Below are positions 5,991 to 28,010 of a stretch of 64,000 nucleotides of DNA, piece by piece. Location: positions 3,224,501 through 3,288,500 of the forward strand of contig NZ_CP019344.1 in NCBI RefSeq assembly GCF_002117125.1, written 5' to 3'. The DNA comes from Nonlabens spongiae (GTDB taxonomy: Bacteria > Bacteroidota > Bacteroidia > Flavobacteriales > Flavobacteriaceae). Every line of letters starts with the position of its first letter. Within the stretch, counting starts at the first letter, position 1. A program made the translations under genes and the position numbers. The notes beneath the pieces were generated by a model. The model did no database searches. It was not told where the DNA came from and was given only the letters and a program-made list of their open reading frames with translations.

Positions 5991-6051
5991 TGCTTAATTT
6001 TTATTGCGCTTTCAGACTTGGACAAGCTCAGTATAAACTTCTTTTCGTTTC

Positions 6052-6067
6052 CGCTTTCGCGAAAGCG
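6052..6067. repeat. Core palindrome CGCTTTCGCGAAAGCG
   Basis: Perfect copy, 96 bases downstream of the stop of the 811-residue permease (on the minus strand). It is followed by a sequence also present at the other permease tails. Confidence 0.9.
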
Positions 6068-6163: not shown

Positions 6164-8599
6164 TCATTCCGTTTTTAAACTTTCCACCGGATTTCTCATT
6201 GCGGTTGAAACGGTTTTAATACTCATTACCGCGAGAGCAATTACGGTCATTGCGGCGATGCTGCCCAAGAAAATCCAAATACTGATGTCCGTACGGAATA
6301 CAAAATCGTTGAGATAATCCTGAATGAAATAGTATGCGATGGGTGCGGCGATTAAGAAGGCGATTAAAATCAGAATGACAAAATCTCTACACAACAATAA
6401 ATTGATCTGCGCCACGGTGGCGCCCAGAACCTTACGTACTCCTATCTCTTTGCGACGTCGCTCGGTGGTATGTACCACGAGCCCGAGTAATCCAAGACAA
6501 CTGATCAAAATAGACAGTCCTGTTGCCCAGTTGAGCAATTTAGACAGGCGCTGGTCTTCACGGTAAAATCGTTCAATGCTCTCGTCTAGAAAGCCTACAC
6601 TAACATCGCTATCAGGAAAAATAGAGAGATATGTGCTTTCTATCCGATCAATGATGTCGGAAATATCTGAATTTGCCGCAGTTTTAAGGTGCACTGTGCT
6701 GAAGTATCCCCAGCCGCTGCGCGATAGGTCTCCCGTAAAAGCAAGTGGCATAATTTCATTTTTGGCAGAGGCCTGATGAAAATCTTTCATCACTCCTACA
6801 ACGGTAATCTTTTTGTCATCATAAGTCACTTGCTGATTGATAATTTCCTCAGGTGAGTTGAAGCCTAGAATCTTTGTAGCTTTTTCATTAAGGACAAATT
6901 CAGCGATGGTATCATTGAGCGGTACTCTACCGGCCAGTAAGTCAATATTGTACAATTCAAGATATTCTGTATCGCCGTACTGCATGCGCACCTCAGTTTT
7001 GTATTCCTGACCGTCGTGATTGATTTTCATCAAGTTCACATGGGTACTCATACTCGCTGGAGGCATGCTACCCAGACTGGTCATCTCAACACCTGATATT
7101 TTGCTCAATTCAATCTGAAGTGCGGCTTTTTTGCTAAAATCTTTCTCGCCCCACGGCATCTGTACAAATAGGCGGTTTTCTTTTTCAAAACCCATATCCT
7201 GATTTAATACAAAATGTATCTGTCGACCCACAAGAAGGGAACCGATGATGAATACCTGAGCTACACCAAATTGAAAAACCGTCAGTCCTTTACGTATAGT
7301 TGGATTGCCACTTGTAGATGAATATTCTCCTTTGAGAACTTTACTGGGTTTAAAACTTGACAAAACAAGGGACGGATAAAACCCTGCGGCAAATGTGACC
7401 ACTAGAAGCAACACTAATATCCCCATCAGAACAACAGGTTTTAATAAAAGACCTAGACTAATAGCATCTACAATATAATCAGAGAATATCTGGATCAACC
7501 AATAGGATAAGCCTACGGATAACGCTATGGAGAGCAAGGTGAGTAAGAAAGTCTCGCCTAGAAACTGTCTTATGAGTTGGCCTCTTGAACTACCCAGTGT
7601 TTTACGTACCCCTATCTCGCGCGCTCTTTGGGTTGCACTGGCGGTGTTTAGATTGATAAAATTTACGACGCCCAGCAAAAGAAGGAAAAGCGCAACGAAA
7701 CCTAATGAGGTAAGAACTGTTTTGTTGGCTTGGTTCCGGCTGTAATCATAAATACCATATTTAGTATTGAAATGAATGTCAGATAACGGTTGGAGCTTAT
7801 ACCATGACTTCATACCGAATTCTATGGACTCTTCATCCCATTGTGATTCAGCGAGGGTTGCCAATCTTTTGTTGATCGAAGCAACATCTGCATCAGGTCG
7901 CAATTGCACATAAAGTTGTGAACTGGAATTAATGCTGTCAAATCCTTGCTCGCTCATGCCTTTAAGGTCACTCTGGCTCACCGTTTCATAGGCAATGAAT
8001 TCTGTAAAAACCAGATCAGAATTGTTCTCAAAATCAGCTACAATGCCAGAAACATTAGCTTGAAATTCTGTGTAGTCCAGAGTTTGCCCTATTATCTCTT
8101 CAGGTGATAAATTAGGGAAATAGTAGGCTGCCTTTTGCTGGGTGAGAACCACATTGTTCGGAGTGCTGAGCGCTGTTTCTGGATTACCGGCAAGCCATTC
8201 ATAGTCAAAAATTGAGAAATAGCTACTTTCTGCAAAAATGACCCTATCGTTGATCTTGCTGGTTTTTTGAGTGCTGAGTGCGGTGATTTTTGCAGGGTTA
8301 TAAAGAATAAAGTGCGCTTTTTTCTCCACTTCGGGATATTCTGCGAGCATGGTTTCACCCAGTGGAATAGGAGTTCCCGGGTTACCGAAAGCATCATCAC
8401 CAAATTCTAAATCGCTTACCGCCCTATAAATGTGCTCACCATTTTTATGAAAACGATCAAATGTAAAATCGTGATACACCATCATGCCTATTACCAACGA
8501 GGCACTAAGGCCTATGGAAAGGCTTATAATATTGATTACTGAAAAGAATTTCTGCTTCCAGAGGCTTCTCCAAGCTATTTTAAGGTAGTTTTTAAGCAT
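6164..8599 (-). CDS. FtsX/MacB-type ABC permease
   Basis: The 811-residue protein begins MLKNYLKIAWRSL, has one membrane helix near residues 20-42, a large periplasmic MacB_PCD domain, three helices near residues 290-415, a second periplasmic domain and a final FtsX domain with ERRRKEIGVRKVLGA (about residue 700) and closing NPVESLKTE. This is the long duplicated FtsX permease form typical of Bacteroidetes. The cargo is unknown. Upstream (8600-8770) is a promoter region shared with the adaptor gene at 16579-17850, so both may answer to the same regulator. Confidence 0.9.
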   Translation of the reverse strand: MLKNYLKIAWRSLWKQKFFSVINIISLSIGLSASLVIGMMVYHDFTFDRFHKNGEHIYRAVSDLEFGDDAFGNPGTPIPLGETMLAEYPEVEKKAHFILYNPAKITALSTQKTSKINDRVIFAESSYFSIFDYEWLAGNPETALSTPNNVVLTQQKAAYYFPNLSPEEIIGQTLDYTEFQANVSGIVADFENNSDLVFTEFIAYETVSQSDLKGMSEQGFDSINSSSQLYVQLRPDADVASINKRLATLAESQWDEESIEFGMKSWYKLQPLSDIHFNTKYGIYDYSRNQANKTVLTSLGFVALFLLLLGVVNFINLNTASATQRAREIGVRKTLGSSRGQLIRQFLGETFLLTLLSIALSVGLSYWLIQIFSDYIVDAISLGLLLKPVVLMGILVLLLVVTFAAGFYPSLVLSSFKPSKVLKGEYSSTSGNPTIRKGLTVFQFGVAQVFIIGSLLVGRQIHFVLNQDMGFEKENRLFVQMPWGEKDFSKKAALQIELSKISGVEMTSLGSMPPASMSTHVNLMKINHDGQEYKTEVRMQYGDTEYLELYNIDLLAGRVPLNDTIAEFVLNEKATKILGFNSPEEIINQQVTYDDKKITVVGVMKDFHQASAKNEIMPLAFTGDLSRSGWGYFSTVHLKTAANSDISDIIDRIESTYLSIFPDSDVSVGFLDESIERFYREDQRLSKLLNWATGLSILISCLGLLGLVVHTTERRRKEIGVRKVLGATVAQINLLLCRDFVILILIAFLIAAPIAYYFIQDYLNDFVFRTDISIWIFLGSIAAMTVIALAVMSIKTVSTAMRNPVESLKTE

Positions 8600-9488: not shown

Positions 9489-9504
9489 CGCTTTCGCGAA
9501 AGCG
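9489..9504. repeat. Core palindrome CGCTTTCGCGAAAGCG
   Basis: Perfect copy, 71 bases from the stop codon of the decayed permease, matching the 71-base spacing at the two neighbouring permease genes. Confidence 0.9.
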
Positions 9505-10515: not shown

Positions 10516-10564
10516 CGCTTTCCCTCGGTCGCCATAGGATTGCTGACGGCGCAGCGCGAAAGCG
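10516..10564. repeat. 49-bp extended palindrome
   Basis: The arms CGCTTTC and GCGAAAGCG of the core are separated by exactly 33 bp of GC-rich sequence, 23/33 identical to the insert at 27442-27474. It lies 71 bases from the stop of the 798-residue permease, where the paralogous genes have the 16-bp form. Confidence 0.85.
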
Positions 10565-10635: not shown

Positions 10636-13032
10636 TTACTCCGTTTTCAAACTCTTCACAGGATTAGCCACTGCAGCTTTGATAGCTTGAAAACTCACAG
10701 TGATCAAGGTCAAAATCAGAGCTCCGATTCCAGCTAGTAGGAACACGTCCACACTTATATCTGTACGGTAACTGAAGCGCTCGATCCAACCGTTCATAAA
10801 GTAGTAGGCGAGTGGCGCCGCTATGAGTATACTGATGCATACGAGCAGCAGGAAGTCTTTGGAAAGTAGCAACCACAGGTTTGCAACGCTAGCGCCTAAT
10901 ACTTTGCGTACTCCTATCTCTTTAGTACGCTGCTCTGCCACAAATGATGCGAGGCCGAATAACCCTAAACAACTTATGATGATAGCGAGAATGGTAAATA
11001 ATTTTGATAATCCAGCAACTCGTTCCTCGTTTTCAAATTTTCTAGCAAAATTCTCGTCTATAAAATCGTACTGGAAGGGTACGTTGGGGAAATGTTCCTT
11101 AAATACTTTTTCAACTATAGCGAGGTTTTCCGCTACAGAATTTTCTGGGTTCAAGCGCATTTGATAGTACGCAGAATTATCATACTTGTCAAAAGGGTAG
11201 ATGTGTTGTTTTACAGGTTCGTACGGAGATTGTATAATGGCATCTCTCACCACTCCTATTATTTTTAAAGGTGGTTCAGGATCATCGCTCGCGTTATCTA
11301 TGAGTAGTTTTCCTATTGGATCTTGAATTTGCATGTACTTTACGGCAGTTTCATTAAGGATGACTGCATTAGAATCCGTGGCAAAATTTCTGCTGAAATC
11401 CCTACCTTCAATGATCTCCATCCCCATGGTTTCTATGTAATCCCATGAAACATGCGTCATGGCAAAATCTTCTTGAAATCCTTCTGGTTTTCCATCCCAT
11501 TTATATCCAGCGGTGTTAGACCATACCTCTGTAACCGGACTCAGGGAACTGGCAAAGGCTGTAACCGCTCCACAATTCATGAATTGCGTTCTACTGAAAT
11601 CATATTTTCCGTTGAAGTCATGACTGAAGATGGGTACTTGTATGAGGCCTGCTTTATCATATCCCATCGGTCGGTTCTTTGAGTATTCAATTTGACTTAA
11701 TACAATCAGGGTTCCTATGATCAAGGTAATTGAAACCGTAAACTGGGTCACCACAAGTATCTTGCGAGGTAATGCCGCATAACGCCCAGATTTAAAAGTT
11801 CCTTTCAAAACTTTTACTGGAGTGAATGATGATAGGTATAGCGATGGGTAACTACCTGCCAGGAGTGCGGTAACTAAAATGAATACTAAGGAAAATATCC
11901 AGAACCAGCCATTCAAATAGGGAAAAGAAATATTCTTATTGGCCATCTCATTGAAGTAGCTCAATGAAACTATAACGATAACAATGGCTAGAAAATAAGC
12001 TAACAAAACTACTAGAAACGACTCGCTCAAAAACTGTTTGATGAGTTGGGATCGAGTGGAACCTATGGATTTGCGAATACCCACTTCCAGAGATCTTTTT
12101 TCTGATCGCGCGGTACTTAAATTCATGAAGTTAATGCATGCCAGTATTAATACAAATATTCCTATGATGCCAAATAGCCAAACATTCTCGATACGCCCGC
12201 CAGCTTTTTTACCATCTATGTACTCACCGTATAGATGCCACTCTTCCATGGGGTTGATGTGTAGGGTAGGGTTGTGATCATTATCTGGTTGTGCGTTCTT
12301 TTTTGTGTCGGCGATTGCGGCGTCTGCCTGTGACATGGTGACGCCTTCCTTGAGCAGAACAAACATTTGAAATGAGTTGTTGTCCCAGTTATCTGCATTG
12401 GTTCTAATCCATTCTCTGGAAGAAGTGTAATATTCCCAGGGCATTAAATAGTGCATAGTGGAAAAAGAACCGTGTTGAGGTGGATTTTTATAAACTGCCG
12501 TAACTTTGAGGGATTCCCCTCTGTCTATACTGACCAGCTGACCTATAGGATCTTCTTTCCCAAATAAGGCTTCGGCAGACTGCTCAGAAATCATTAAGCT
12601 CTTTGGATCACAAAGGCCTCGCTCAACCCCCTTTATAACCTCTATATCCAGCACTTCTAAGATTTCCTTGCTCATAAAGAAACCGTTGAGAGAGAAGCTC
12701 TCGCCACCGTGATTGAAGAATTGGGCACTTTCCCAGCTAGACATTACTACATGCTCAAAAATATCAGAGTGTTTCTCCTTAACCTCAAACTCAAGCGGTA
12801 GTGGAATCGCTTGACCGGTACTTATTTGTCCATTAAAAGTCTGGCTTTGCCATACTTGGGCAATTCTAGCTTTGTTAGTGTATGCATTGTTAAATGTGAA
12901 CTCGTCATTAATCCAAAGACCTATCATGATCGTGACGGCCATTCCTAGTGCGAGTCCTAGAATGTTTATGGCAGAGTAAATCTTACTTTTAATCAGATTC
13001 CTCCAGGCTATTTTGAAATTGTTTTTTAGCAT
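10636..13032 (-). CDS. FtsX/MacB-type ABC permease
   Basis: The 798-residue protein has the same architecture as its neighbours: MLKNNFKIAWRNL and a first helix, a periplasmic MacB_PCD domain, a central three-helix group with ARSEKRSLEVGIRKSIGS (about residue 310), a second periplasmic domain, and the final domain with AEQRTKEIGVRKVLGASV and VANPVKSLKTE. It is 104 bp downstream of the 784-residue paralogue in the same direction. Tandem duplication is evident from protein ends and from the shared 3' flank. Confidence 0.9.
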   Translation of the reverse strand: MLKNNFKIAWRNLIKSKIYSAINILGLALGMAVTIMIGLWINDEFTFNNAYTNKARIAQVWQSQTFNGQISTGQAIPLPLEFEVKEKHSDIFEHVVMSSWESAQFFNHGGESFSLNGFFMSKEILEVLDIEVIKGVERGLCDPKSLMISEQSAEALFGKEDPIGQLVSIDRGESLKVTAVYKNPPQHGSFSTMHYLMPWEYYTSSREWIRTNADNWDNNSFQMFVLLKEGVTMSQADAAIADTKKNAQPDNDHNPTLHINPMEEWHLYGEYIDGKKAGGRIENVWLFGIIGIFVLILACINFMNLSTARSEKRSLEVGIRKSIGSTRSQLIKQFLSESFLVVLLAYFLAIVIVIVSLSYFNEMANKNISFPYLNGWFWIFSLVFILVTALLAGSYPSLYLSSFTPVKVLKGTFKSGRYAALPRKILVVTQFTVSITLIIGTLIVLSQIEYSKNRPMGYDKAGLIQVPIFSHDFNGKYDFSRTQFMNCGAVTAFASSLSPVTEVWSNTAGYKWDGKPEGFQEDFAMTHVSWDYIETMGMEIIEGRDFSRNFATDSNAVILNETAVKYMQIQDPIGKLLIDNASDDPEPPLKIIGVVRDAIIQSPYEPVKQHIYPFDKYDNSAYYQMRLNPENSVAENLAIVEKVFKEHFPNVPFQYDFIDENFARKFENEERVAGLSKLFTILAIIISCLGLFGLASFVAEQRTKEIGVRKVLGASVANLWLLLSKDFLLLVCISILIAAPLAYYFMNGWIERFSYRTDISVDVFLLAGIGALILTLITVSFQAIKAAVANPVKSLKTE

Positions 13033-13049: not shown

Positions 13050-13065
13050 CGCTTTCGCGAAAGCG
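13050..13065. repeat. Core palindrome CGCTTTCGCGAAAGCG
   Basis: Perfect copy between two permease genes, 71 bases after the stop of the 784-residue permease and just before the start of the 798-residue one. Confidence 0.9.
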
Positions 13066-13136: not shown

Positions 13137-15491
13137 CTATTCCGTTTTCAAGCTTTTGATGGGATTTGCAACTGCTGCTTTTATGGCCTGGAAGCTCACC
13201 GTGAGCAGGGCTATAGCAAGTGCTGAAAAAGCAGCCAAGAAAAATACGAGCGGATTGATCTCAATGCGGTAGGCAAAATCCTGCAGCCAATTTTCCATAA
13301 CGAGATAGCCGACTGGGATGGCGATTACCACTGCAATCCCTATGAGTTTCAAGAAGTCTTGTGACAGCAATTTCACGATATTTGTAACGCTGGAGCCTAG
13401 TACTTTGCGTACACCTATTTCTTTGCGACGCTGCTCTGCCGTGTAGGCCGATAGTCCAAAAAGCCCCAAACACGATATGAAAATTGCCAGTACAGCAAAG
13501 ATTTGTGATAGCTGACCGATCAGGTTCTCACTTCTGAAACGTGCCTCAAACTCATCGTCCACAAATCGATATTCAAGAGGGTAGCCTTCATTATGTTTAT
13601 CCAAAACCTTTTCAATCTCTGTGATGACGCTGTGGGTATCAATGCCTTCAGCAGGTTTTAGGTAGAGGTAGTTAGCGCCTTCTTTCTGGTGATAAAACAG
13701 CACGGGATCACTATCTGTATACATGTCGCCATATTGATAATTTGCTACGACTCCTTTTACGGTAAGTTGCATATCGCCCCAGGTTACAATAGAGCCTATG
13801 ATATCTTCCTTTTTCATGAGATCAGCAAAGGATTTTGAGATAAGGATACTGGTTGAATCTTTAGCCACGTCAGTTGAGAAACCTCGACCTTCCAGAATAT
13901 CTAAACCAGTAGTTTTAAAATAATCTTTTGTGATTGTATGGAAGGAAACGAGAATATCTTCATCTTCTGGCTTGCCGTCCCATTCTAGTCCAGAAGTGTT
14001 GTTCCCTTCAGAAAGCGCTTGCGAATTGCTAAGACCCGCACTAGAAATTACACCAGCCGATTTCAAGTCTTGCTCGATCAATTCGAAATTTTCAATGATT
14101 TGATCCGTATAAGGGATTTCGACCAGATTGTCTTTATCGATTCCCAAATCCCTGTTTTTAACATGCTGTACCTGTTGATATACCAGTATCGTACTGATGA
14201 TAAAAACGATGGATACTGAAAATTGAGCAACCACAAGTCCCTTGCGTATGAACGTAGCGCCTCCACTTGATTTAAAGGCACCTTTTAAAACGGATACAGG
14301 TTTGAACGAAGACAGATAAAATGCTGGGTAAAGTCCCGCTAGCAAACCACATAACAAAATTATAGAGGTCAAACTTATGATATGCAAAGGATCCATAAGT
14401 CTAAGCGAGACTCGAGCGTTGAGCATAGCGTTAAATTCCGGAATGATCAAGAGTAAAAGCCCCACGCTCAAGACTCCGGCTAGAAACGCAGTGACCAGCG
14501 ACTCTGATAAAAATTGAAAAATCAACTGATTCTTACTTGAGCCAAGCGCCTTGCGCATGCCTACTTCATTTGCCCTCTTCTCGCTGCGAGCAGTTGCGAT
14601 ATTCATAAAATTGATACAGGCAATGATGAGTATGATCAAGGCAATTGCGGCAAACAACCTTATAAATTCTATTTGCCCACCTACAATTTCACCATTTTTA
14701 AACGTATTCCTCAGATGCCAGTCTTCTGCAGAAAATAGTATGGCTTCTGTACTTGGATCGTTGGTTTTTGTAGGTAAAACGGCTTTTACCTTTTCATTTG
14801 TTGCGGTGTAATCAGCGCTGGGCTTAAGTTTTACAAAAGCATCTGTGAAATTGCTGTCGTAGCCTTGAGTCCACTCCTTGCCATCTGTAAAATTCTCGAA
14901 GGGTATAAATGAATCGAAAGTGTAAGTAGAGGACTCAGGTATATTTTTAATGACTCCCGTCACTTGATAGCTCTCGGTTTTGTTAATGAGTAAGGTCTGG
15001 TTTAATGGATCTTGATTTTGAAAAAGTCTAACTGCAAGGTCTTGAGTCAAAACAATGCTCTTTTTGTTTTGAAACGTACGCTCCGCATTTCCAGCAATGA
15101 ATTCAAGACTGAAGATGTCAAAAATATCTTCATCAGCATAGGCGCTATTGCCATTAAGAGCTGTTTCTCCTGCGGTTAGTAACAGATCTGTATTGCGCAT
15201 TCTTCCGGATTTTGCCACTTCTGGAATTTCGTCCTTCAGCACTTGTGCGAGAGGTCCCGGAGTCGCTTGATTAAAAGTGCGCCACTCTCCGTCATATTTT
15301 TGATTTGTAGGTATTGAATAGACAAGGTGTTTATCTTCAATATGCTGATCGTAGCTCAGCTCACCTTCAATCCATAGAAAAATCAATCCAGCACAAGTGA
15401 TTCCTATAGCGAGTCCTGCAATATTTAATAAAGAGTATCCCTTGTTTTTCCAAAGGTTTCTCAAAGCGATTTTGAAATAGTTTTTTAGCAT
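13137..15491 (-). CDS. FtsX/MacB-type ABC permease
   Basis: The 784-residue protein has the duplicated FtsX layout: a first helix within MLKNYFKIALRNL-, a periplasmic domain, a central helix group with ARSEKRANEVGMRKALGSSK, a second periplasmic domain and the final domain with AEQRRKEIGVRKVLGSSV and VANPIKSLKTE. It is the first permease after the ATPase at 15637-16344 and most likely its direct partner. The substrate is unknown; MacB-like and antimicrobial-peptide-resistance roles are both known for the wider family. Confidence 0.9.
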   Translation of the reverse strand: MLKNYFKIALRNLWKNKGYSLLNIAGLAIGITCAGLIFLWIEGELSYDQHIEDKHLVYSIPTNQKYDGEWRTFNQATPGPLAQVLKDEIPEVAKSGRMRNTDLLLTAGETALNGNSAYADEDIFDIFSLEFIAGNAERTFQNKKSIVLTQDLAVRLFQNQDPLNQTLLINKTESYQVTGVIKNIPESSTYTFDSFIPFENFTDGKEWTQGYDSNFTDAFVKLKPSADYTATNEKVKAVLPTKTNDPSTEAILFSAEDWHLRNTFKNGEIVGGQIEFIRLFAAIALIILIIACINFMNIATARSEKRANEVGMRKALGSSKNQLIFQFLSESLVTAFLAGVLSVGLLLLIIPEFNAMLNARVSLRLMDPLHIISLTSIILLCGLLAGLYPAFYLSSFKPVSVLKGAFKSSGGATFIRKGLVVAQFSVSIVFIISTILVYQQVQHVKNRDLGIDKDNLVEIPYTDQIIENFELIEQDLKSAGVISSAGLSNSQALSEGNNTSGLEWDGKPEDEDILVSFHTITKDYFKTTGLDILEGRGFSTDVAKDSTSILISKSFADLMKKEDIIGSIVTWGDMQLTVKGVVANYQYGDMYTDSDPVLFYHQKEGANYLYLKPAEGIDTHSVITEIEKVLDKHNEGYPLEYRFVDDEFEARFRSENLIGQLSQIFAVLAIFISCLGLFGLSAYTAEQRRKEIGVRKVLGSSVTNIVKLLSQDFLKLIGIAVVIAIPVGYLVMENWLQDFAYRIEINPLVFFLAAFSALAIALLTVSFQAIKAAVANPIKSLKTE

Positions 15492-26933: not shown

Positions 26934-28010
26934 ATGAAGGCACGTTACATATCCCACACACTCCACTTCAAGCAACCATCGGGAACTTCTCGTGGTGTTT
27001 TGAAAACCAAGGACACCTTTTTCATCATTATTGAACATGAGGAAAACTGGGGAGTAGGAGAGGTGAACCTGTTCAGAGGACTTTCTTATGATGACCGTGA
27101 GGGTTTTGAAGAGAAATTGAAATGGACCTGTGAAAACATAGGCAAAAAACCCGCTGAAATGATGGAGGAGCTCAAGGAATGGCCTTCCATACTTTTTGGT
27201 TATGAGATGGCGGTTAAATCCTATCAGAGCAGCACGCCATTTGAACTTTTTCCTTCTCTTTTTACTCAGGGACAAGGTGCGATCAACATCAATGGGCTTG
27301 TTTGGATGGGAGATCAAGACTTTATGCAGCGGCAGATTGAGGAAAAACTAAAGCAAGGTTTTGATTGTATAAAGCTTAAGATAGGCGCGATAGACTTTGG
27401 TAAAGAATTGGAATTGTTGAAGTCGGTACGGTCTCGCTTTCCCTCGGCCGCCGAAGACTCGCCGAAGGCACGGCGCGAAAGCGAGATTACCTTAAGAGTA
27501 GATGCTAACGGAGCCTTTTCTCCTGATGAAGCGGCAGAAAAGCTTGAAAAACTTTCTCAATTTGACATTCATAGCATTGAGCAGCCCATCAAACAAAATC
27601 AATGGGAAGCTATGGCTCAAGTCTGTGAGATTTCCGCGGTAGACGTGGCTCTCGATGAGGAACTGATAGGGATTACAGATCGCGAGGAGAAAATTAAGTG
27701 TTTAGAAACTATAAAACCACAATACATCATCTTAAAACCTGCGCTCGTGGGAGGATTTCAATCTACGAGAGAGTGGATAGACCTTGCAGAGGCGCGCAAC
27801 ATAGGCTGGTGGATCACGAGTGCTCTGGAGTCTAATGTAGGCCTCAATGCCATCGCACAATTCACATATACTTTAGGAACTACGATGCCACAAGGGTTGG
27901 GAACTGGTGGACTTTTTACCAATAATATAGAGTGTCCTCTTGAGATCAAAAATGGAAAATTGATCTGTAACGCAAACCGCAAGTGGGACACTAACCTTTT
28001 CAAAGATTAA
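26934..28010 (+). CDS. menC: o-Succinylbenzoate synthase carrying an in-frame palindromic element
   Basis: The 358-residue enolase-superfamily enzyme dehydrates SHCHC to o-succinylbenzoate in menaquinone synthesis. Visible are the KLK base motif (CIKLKIGAIDF), metal-ligand segments RVDANGAF, SIEQP and LDEEL, and a second Lys in YIILKPALVGG. Residues 168-184, between the KLK strand and RVDANG, are encoded by a 49-bp extended palindrome (27435-27483) that reads RFPSAAEDSPKARRES. Catalytic residues are intact, so activity is plausible. menE lies two genes downstream. Confidence 0.9.
   Translation: MKARYISHTLHFKQPSGTSRGVLKTKDTFFIIIEHEENWGVGEVNLFRGLSYDDREGFEEKLKWTCENIGKKPAEMMEELKEWPSILFGYEMAVKSYQSSTPFELFPSLFTQGQGAININGLVWMGDQDFMQRQIEEKLKQGFDCIKLKIGAIDFGKELELLKSVRSRFPSAAEDSPKARRESEITLRVDANGAFSPDEAAEKLEKLSQFDIHSIEQPIKQNQWEAMAQVCEISAVDVALDEELIGITDREEKIKCLETIKPQYIILKPALVGGFQSTREWIDLAEARNIGWWITSALESNVGLNAIAQFTYTLGTTMPQGLGTGGLFTNNIECPLEIKNGKLICNANRKWDTNLFKD
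27435..27483. repeat. 49-bp extended palindrome inside menC
   Basis: Core arms CGCTTTC and GCGAAAGCG flank a 33-bp GC-rich insert (27442-27474). As 33 is a multiple of three, gaining it in a core copy would keep the frame. The only other such copy in the window is at 10516. Confidence 0.88.

Follow-up and report, generated by a model that had tools for sequence, protein, structure and literature searches.

Results

A split palindrome downstream of duplicated permease genes

Downstream of duplicated permease genes in Nonlabens spongiae, the same 16-bp palindrome, CGCTTTCGCGAAAGCG, occurs in a plain form and, at one site, in a 49-bp form. Did the long form arise by insertion into a pre-existing palindrome, can the insert leave again, and what carries it? 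These questions were addressed starting from a 64,000-nucleotide stretch of the chromosome, hereafter the window.

The 49-bp form consists of a left arm, CGCTTTC (10516..10522), a 33-bp insert (10523..10555, + strand, a member of the family here called A, with a junction ambiguous by 1 base) and a right arm, GCGAAAGCG (10556..10564). A second split palindrome lies within an ORF, with its left arm at 27435..27441, an in-frame 33-bp insert adding 11 residues at 27442..27474 (+ strand) and its right arm at 27475..27483. This ORF (26934..28010, + strand, 358 aa) has a domain match to the enolase superfamily (MR_MLE_C), and its product is presumably dipeptide-epimerase-like. Plain 16-bp copies stand at 6052..6067, 9489..9504 and 13050..13065. 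The coordinates and sequences that the initial annotation gave for these three copies and for both long forms are correct, and so is its description of the long forms as two arms plus 33 bp, with inserts identical at 23/33 positions.

The filled site at 10516 lies downstream of an FtsX/MacB_PCD permease gene (10636..13032, - strand). Paralogs identified by the same domain match have empty sites downstream: 13137..15491 (- strand), whose site at 13050 is the best aligned, and 6164..8599 (- strand), with its site at 6052. The plain copy at 9489 has a gene-side flank resembling that of 10516 and probably marks a permease remnant. Immediately before the core at 6052 stand a half palindrome, CGCTTTC, and then a CTTGGACAAGCTCAG-TATAAACTTC piece (together 6007..6051, + strand). 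The whole of 6007-6067 reads as a half palindrome, a CTTCGACAAGCTCAG-type hairpin and a ATAAACTT piece, then the plain core; the half palindrome, CTTCGACAAGCTCAG hairpin and ATAAACTT arrangement also occurs in tandem in L024, around 1501-1600.

The four sites had been said to share their flanks, and this holds for one side. Gene-side flanks of 130 bases align between 10516 and each of 13050, 6052 and 9489 (0/1000 composition-preserving shuffles as high in each case), the alignment with 13050 starting at the second flank base. Flanks of 60 bases on the other side show no significant alignment (the observed score was reached by 603 shuffles in 1000 for 13050, 63 for 6052 and 423 for 9489), so the argument from paralogs is one-sided. 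The reported distance of 71 bases from palindrome to stop codon was confirmed at 9489, 10516 and 13050, where a stop triplet stands 72 bases on with 71 between; for 6052 one stands at 97 bases. In the congener G002, the counterpart of 13050 is filled with an insert of that genome's own longer family. Its counterpart of 10516, also downstream of the permease, is a core with one mismatch, but it lies at a different distance and was for that reason not counted as an aligned empty site.

Empty and filled states at orthologous sites

Orthologs give much firmer support than paralogs for an insert in a pre-existing palindrome. The 11 residues encoded by the insert at 27435 are absent from 22/22 congeneric orthologs, which at that point carry the exact CGCTTTCGCGAAAGCG (15), a core one base off (5) or no core (2). 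Empty and filled states thus exist at the same site, and the proposal that the 33 bp entered an existing palindrome is borne out.

Further pairs of states came from two genomes of the genus, G004 and G008, which are ∼94% identical (88.6-95.8% per aligned piece). Over 66 kb of alignment, in stretches picked in part for a long form in one of the two genomes, 17 sites carry a 36- or 37-base form in at least one of them; 12 are common to both genomes and five differ by exactly 21 bp, four being filled in G004 and one in G008. The empty partner at these five sites is an exact core in four and a one-mismatch core in one, and the four 36-base forms in the alignments are all common to both. A 24-bp hairpin found in G008 at another point of the palindrome was kept apart from the 17 sites. 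Empty/filled differences within a close pair are therefore established.

Two of the five differences (L123 and L127) could be polarised and three remain unpolarised. At L123, filled in G004, a plain core is present in G008 and G020 and a one-mismatch core in G018; G022 has a 20-bp insert at the position that corresponds by distance, beyond its aligned part. At L127, G004 alone is filled; the ORF there is glycosyltransferase-like, by Pfam matches that fall short of the curated cut-offs. The 14-base centre of the palindrome stands at the same codon in five further genomes and G008 has a one-mismatch core there, indicating that G004 gained 7 residues. Fourteen other orthologs are coreless at that codon (12/14 have a core at codon 24) and hence uninformative on polarity.

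The initial annotation had envisaged two interconvertible states, with possible loss by precise deletion. The three polarised sites (27435 in N. spongiae, L123 and L127 in G004) are instead all terminal-lineage gains, which establishes derived gain at orthologous sites; precise loss is demonstrated nowhere, though three of the five G004/G008 differences are unpolarised.

The target is a hyper-abundant, evenly spaced palindrome

The window holds 17 intact copies of CGCTTTCGCGAAAGCG and 18 matches to the 10-mer TTTCGCGAAA, including those 17. Copies of the 14-base centre, GCTTTCGCGAAAGC, number 779 in the 3.39-Mb genome (∼1 per 4.4 kb), whereas its reversed sequence is absent from the same 3.39 Mb. 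In 464 kb of this genome (L060-L079 and the window), 113 copies were observed against 0.002 expected from trinucleotide composition, which rules out chance. All 23 genomes of the genus, N. spongiae included, carry 288-857 copies. Counts fall to 0-17 copies per genome in 66 sampled genomes from other genera of the family, and GCTTTCGCGAAAGC is absent from 59/59 sampled genomes of other families. Three Dokdonia genomes carry 857, 685 and 827 copies; in a single-gene tree Dokdonia falls outside this genus, yet among genomes of its family. Dokdonia also shares the 20/21-bp hairpin described below, at the same palindrome junction (L246-L252, L254). Among viral contigs, 41 stretches carry the palindrome 16-mer.

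Within the 464 kb, the spacing of the palindrome is even (coefficient of variation 0.53 against 0.90 for random placement; 0/2000 simulations). Gaps below 1 kb number 5 where 23 would be expected, which gives the impression that copies are maintained every few kb. Flanks are T-rich before the palindrome and A-rich after it. In ORFs called mechanically at ≥150 codons, which served for all position counts of palindromes and inserts, lie 63/113 copies, compared with 82% of random positions (3424/4176); 40/63 of these ORF-internal cores are read in the frame AFAK.

Within genes, substitutions that leave the length unchanged seem to be the source of cores. In the epimerase-like gene, orthologs from 23 other genera and from the 3 Dokdonia genomes are coreless at the 27435 point with equal protein length; these 26 outgroup sequences make substitution, rather than insertion, the most likely origin of the core itself. 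In the glycosyltransferase-like gene (L134:8408-9688 and relatives), 13/14 coreless orthologs are of equal length at codon 78; two species groups have the core at different codons of this gene, 78 versus 24.

No paper containing the 16-mer CGCTTTCGCGAAAGCG was found, and among the papers listed for REP/RAYT/Bacteroidetes, HIP1, uptake sequences, Nonlabens, Dokdonia and Flavobacteriaceae repeats none reports it. The 10-mer TTTCGCGAAA does appear in ten papers, none of them apparently relevant by title and abstract opening.

Insert lengths are not random

The pattern GCTTTC-N19..49-GCGAAAGC gave 42 matches in the N. spongiae genome, against 3 for a reversed-pattern control. Fourteen belong to the 33-bp family A and eight to a 24-bp family B. 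Excluded from these family counts are three other forms (another 33-bp sequence, a 24-bp insert in which a further piece is nested and a longer hairpin), one apparent chance match and 16 matches with a plain core at their start or end (one such core has a mismatch, and two of the matches are one place on both strands). A search with the family-A centre irrespective of arms, allowing ≤3 mismatches, recovered 14 copies in the genome, all between arms and all in a single orientation, 10 with exact arms and 4 with 1-2 altered arm bases; the divergent members at 27435 and 596634 are known from the arm-pattern search. Family A thus totals 16 copies, each of 33 bp, including two with altered arms added by the centre search. 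Its target specificity and fixed orientation are established by these counts. One further family-A copy (L061:13279) bears a nested piece; this insert and that at G000:C1:2252535-2252596 themselves contain a nested hairpin piece.

Across the genus, the exact-arm pattern CGCTTTC-N18..48-GCGAAAGCG, which includes forms merely ending in a plain core, was matched in 18/23 genomes. Congeners with most matches are G004 (37) and G008 (35, one place counted twice), and G001, G007 and G015 have 1, 2 and 2. Families are lineage-specific. Among the matches listed, those of G004 and G008 are mostly a 20/21-bp hairpin of the type CCTGCCTG...CAGGCAGG, which G019, G022, G020 and G005 have as well; G006 has its own 24-bp piece, akin to family B; and longer inserts occur in G002, G011, G005, G016, G006, G008 and G020. 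In stretches of G004 and G008, chosen partly for known long copies, 39/41 CAGGCAGG-type hairpin matches lie inside arms (≤1 mismatch per 6-base arm), the two exceptions being one with decayed arms and one poor match. Insert lengths are not random, and that of family A is fixed, at 33 bp in all 16 copies. The value of 33 bp is not universal, however: among the matches listed, the genus has inserts of 20, 21, 24, 33 and ∼38-47 bp.

Among the ORF-internal inserts are forms whose length is divisible by three. Inside ORFs lie 8/16 entries of the 21-bp form (L124 and L140 being one ortholog pair), 4/5 of the 24-bp form (of 8 copies) and 4/16 of the 33-bp form; the 20-bp form is not found in ORFs (0/4).

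The N. spongiae genome also has REP-like pieces that resemble the 24-bp family but lie outside palindromes. At L076:2698 and L161:168, another hairpin, CCCGATAGCTATCGGG, stands directly 3' of CGCTTTCGCG with the right arm lost. A Saprospiraceae MAG contig (L253) holds a hairpin copy with one (left) arm in a genome without the core, which may reflect transfer or a misbinned contig.

Most inserts share one junction

The usual insertion point is CGCTTT-CGCG^AAAGCG or, as written for the other strand, CGCTTTCGCG^insert^AAAGCG. The three unrelated families of 33, 24 and 20/21 bp have this junction in common, which is thereby established. In the predicted core hairpin, CGCTTT pairs with AAAGCG around a CGCG loop, so that the insert would enter at the border of loop and 3' stem; the 21-bp hairpin is predicted to stack on the core stem with CGCG bulged. 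The junction is not universal. A G008-specific 24-bp hairpin sits at CGC^TTTCGCGAAAGCG, three bases from the usual point, and the CGCG side is not exactly kept in the longer families among the matches listed. The five exact empty/filled pairs have no duplication beyond an ambiguous base; one 40-bp form in G008 has CGCG on both sides.

Predicted folding of the window's long forms is not exceptional against shuffles (z-scores -0.2 to -1.9, both strands), and structure was therefore not used as proof. Hairpins predicted for the inserts are clear in the 20/21-bp family and weak in the 33- and 24-bp families.

Discussion

A palindrome as a probable landing site

The reading we favour, and consider probable, is that very small non-autonomous modules use a hyper-abundant palindrome as their landing site, mostly at one fixed point. 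CGCTTTCGCGAAAGCG would be the pre-existing, hyper-abundant palindrome of the genus, and modules of 20-33 bp, sometimes ∼45 bp and mostly able to form hairpins, would be inserted into it. Their main entry would be the predicted loop/3'-stem border of the hairpin formed by the palindrome as a single strand, and the 33-bp family seen at 10516 and 27435 would have spread within this species. Insertion may take place on single-stranded (e.g. lagging-strand) palindromic DNA, where a hairpin-recognising nuclease or transposase, as a candidate agent only, would act in trans.

A more far-reaching version is offered tentatively, as something we hold to be possible but would not expect. Two Flavobacteriaceae genera would have acquired by substitution an evenly spaced palindrome with a signal function (comparable to HIP1, or serving uptake or chromosome organisation), and an unrecognised non-Y1 enzyme would depend on its single-stranded hairpin as the point of entry for several unrelated modules of 20-33 bp. 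If true, the inserts would be among the smallest mobile DNAs with a demonstrated target, junction and polarity.

A serious rival to any enzyme remains ectopic template switching, which we judge rather unlikely overall. A nascent strand stalled at the palindrome would anneal to another copy, copy its centre and return; with arm identity of 10 + 6 bases, an existing insert could spread without a dedicated enzyme. Each genome offers hundreds of identical arms, family A and the 20/21-bp inserts are located between arms, and two genomes lacking a detected Y1_Tnp still differ at sites, all of which fits such copying. It explains spread, though, and not the common starting point of unrelated families: the junction shared by the 33, 24 and 20/21-bp families requires that separate founding insertions struck one position more than once. 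An arm length of 6-10 bases would also seem very short for such an exchange, and REP-like pieces exist outside palindromes too.

Mobilisation of REP elements by a RAYT (REP-associated Y1 tyrosine transposase) that prefers this palindrome is less probable still. The insert families look REP-like, and N. spongiae has 9 Y1_Tnp matches. Across the genus, 17/23 genomes have a match, but at E 0.001 none was obtained in G004, G008, G019, G022, G009 and G001, and the first two of these have the most pattern matches and nevertheless differ at five sites. Conversely, G014 has 6 Y1_Tnp matches and 0 filled-pattern matches, and no filled palindrome lies within ∼600 bases of the 12 Y1 loci inspected (of 54 matches). 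A Y1 transposase was accordingly rejected as the mover, its presence being unrelated to the number of filled-pattern matches. A search for full-size IS elements in a split core found none in the loci sampled, where CGCTTTCGCG stands in 770 distinct contexts, counted by strand. Of these, 694 run on into a core (≤2 mismatches) and 55 are closed again within 61 bases. By eye, the remaining 21 look like decayed cores or like small hairpins in which an arm has changed or another insert is nested.

That arms and insert move together as a composite MITE, the plain core being the remnant of precise excision, we regard as very improbable, even if all 14 centre-found family-A copies have both arms and the Saprospiraceae hairpin has a left arm in a genome without the core. 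At 27435 and L127 several species share the core and a single one has the insert, a pattern for which a MITE would need many independent exact excisions. Nor do the inserts have terminal inverted repeats of their own, since at the polarised sites the arms belong to the pre-existing target; and no target-site duplication exists at the five exact pairs beyond the ambiguous base. Finally, the one-sided paralog evidence might have left room for the 10516 form being a single accident of sequence between two arms, or an error of assembly. Both are refuted by the genome's 16 related inserts of 33 bp and by exact empty sites in relatives.

Insertion of small modules into an existing palindrome bears on a wider problem, as the spread of REPs and other very small repeats is poorly understood. 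Here the empty and filled states can be read in close relatives, mostly at one junction and also in frame, so that the reaction could be assayed directly. Hyper-abundant palindromes in general perhaps invite such modules. The evenly spaced palindrome is itself a larger question than the inserts.

Comparison with known systems

The closest parallel is in cyanobacteria, where the SDR5 repeat module is described as inserted precisely between nucleotides 3 and 4 of HIP1 (PMC4390886; original Elhai et al. 2008). In both systems, as far as that description goes, a very small repeat sits at an exact position within a palindrome that is iterated many times in the genome, and our data suggest a counterpart in Bacteroidota of the SDR5/HIP1 relation. 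The very small inserts are repeated in the genome (families of 20, 21, 24 and 33 bp) and enter at one point of the palindrome, except for the stray G008 hairpin and the longer families. Compared by description only, the systems differ in phylum and in target, an 8-bp palindrome there and a 16-bp one here, and N. spongiae and its relatives have several unrelated families at one point and polarised gains in coding DNA. HIP1 itself is presented as a perfect palindrome vastly over-represented in one lineage (PMC4390886). Strong over-representation in one lineage is also found for CGCTTTCGCGAAAGCG, which at 16 bp against 8 bp occurs ∼1 per 4.4 kb.

REPs inside target palindromes have been described for T. 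roseum GTAG-23, A. variabilis GTAG-15 and H. neapolitanus CGTC-1, the target of GTAG-23 being present in hundreds of genomic copies (PMC3733652). These cases, as described, share with ours a short palindromic repeat inside a second palindrome. They differ in that the inserts here have tens of copies and apparently no constant GTAG/CGTC tag, and in that empty and filled orthologous sites and a genus-wide, evenly spaced target are available. Measured against REP/RAYT systems generally, a palindromic unit of 20-40 bp is clear in the 20/21-bp family and weak at 33 and 24 bp. By eye, CGTC stands next to the arm in the 24-bp family of G006 and in some 33-bp copies, and GTAG/CGTC is absent from the 21-bp and the N. 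spongiae 24-bp forms. Copy numbers stay below the usual >100 per genome (16 for family A; ≤37 in congeners with exact arms), and no Y1_Tnp match was obtained at E 0.001 in six of the 23 genomes, G004 and G008 among them.

Palindromic inserts kept inside ORFs are reported for intragenic REPs and the Rickettsia palindromic elements (PMC3733652). The inserts within ORFs seen here are similar in this respect; a difference from the elements as described there is that, at the two polarised coding sites, the insert entered a palindrome already in the gene. IS elements that target REPs likewise make a repeated palindrome an insertion hot spot, according to PMC1525189, but the present inserts are too short for a gene and no IS was found at split cores in the loci sampled.

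The inserts thus belong to the same kind as SDR5/HIP1 and the REPs inside palindromes. The present case adds polarised gains at orthologous sites, one junction used by unrelated inserts, a target that is evenly spaced and present throughout the genus, and site differences between two close genomes without a detected Y1 transposase.
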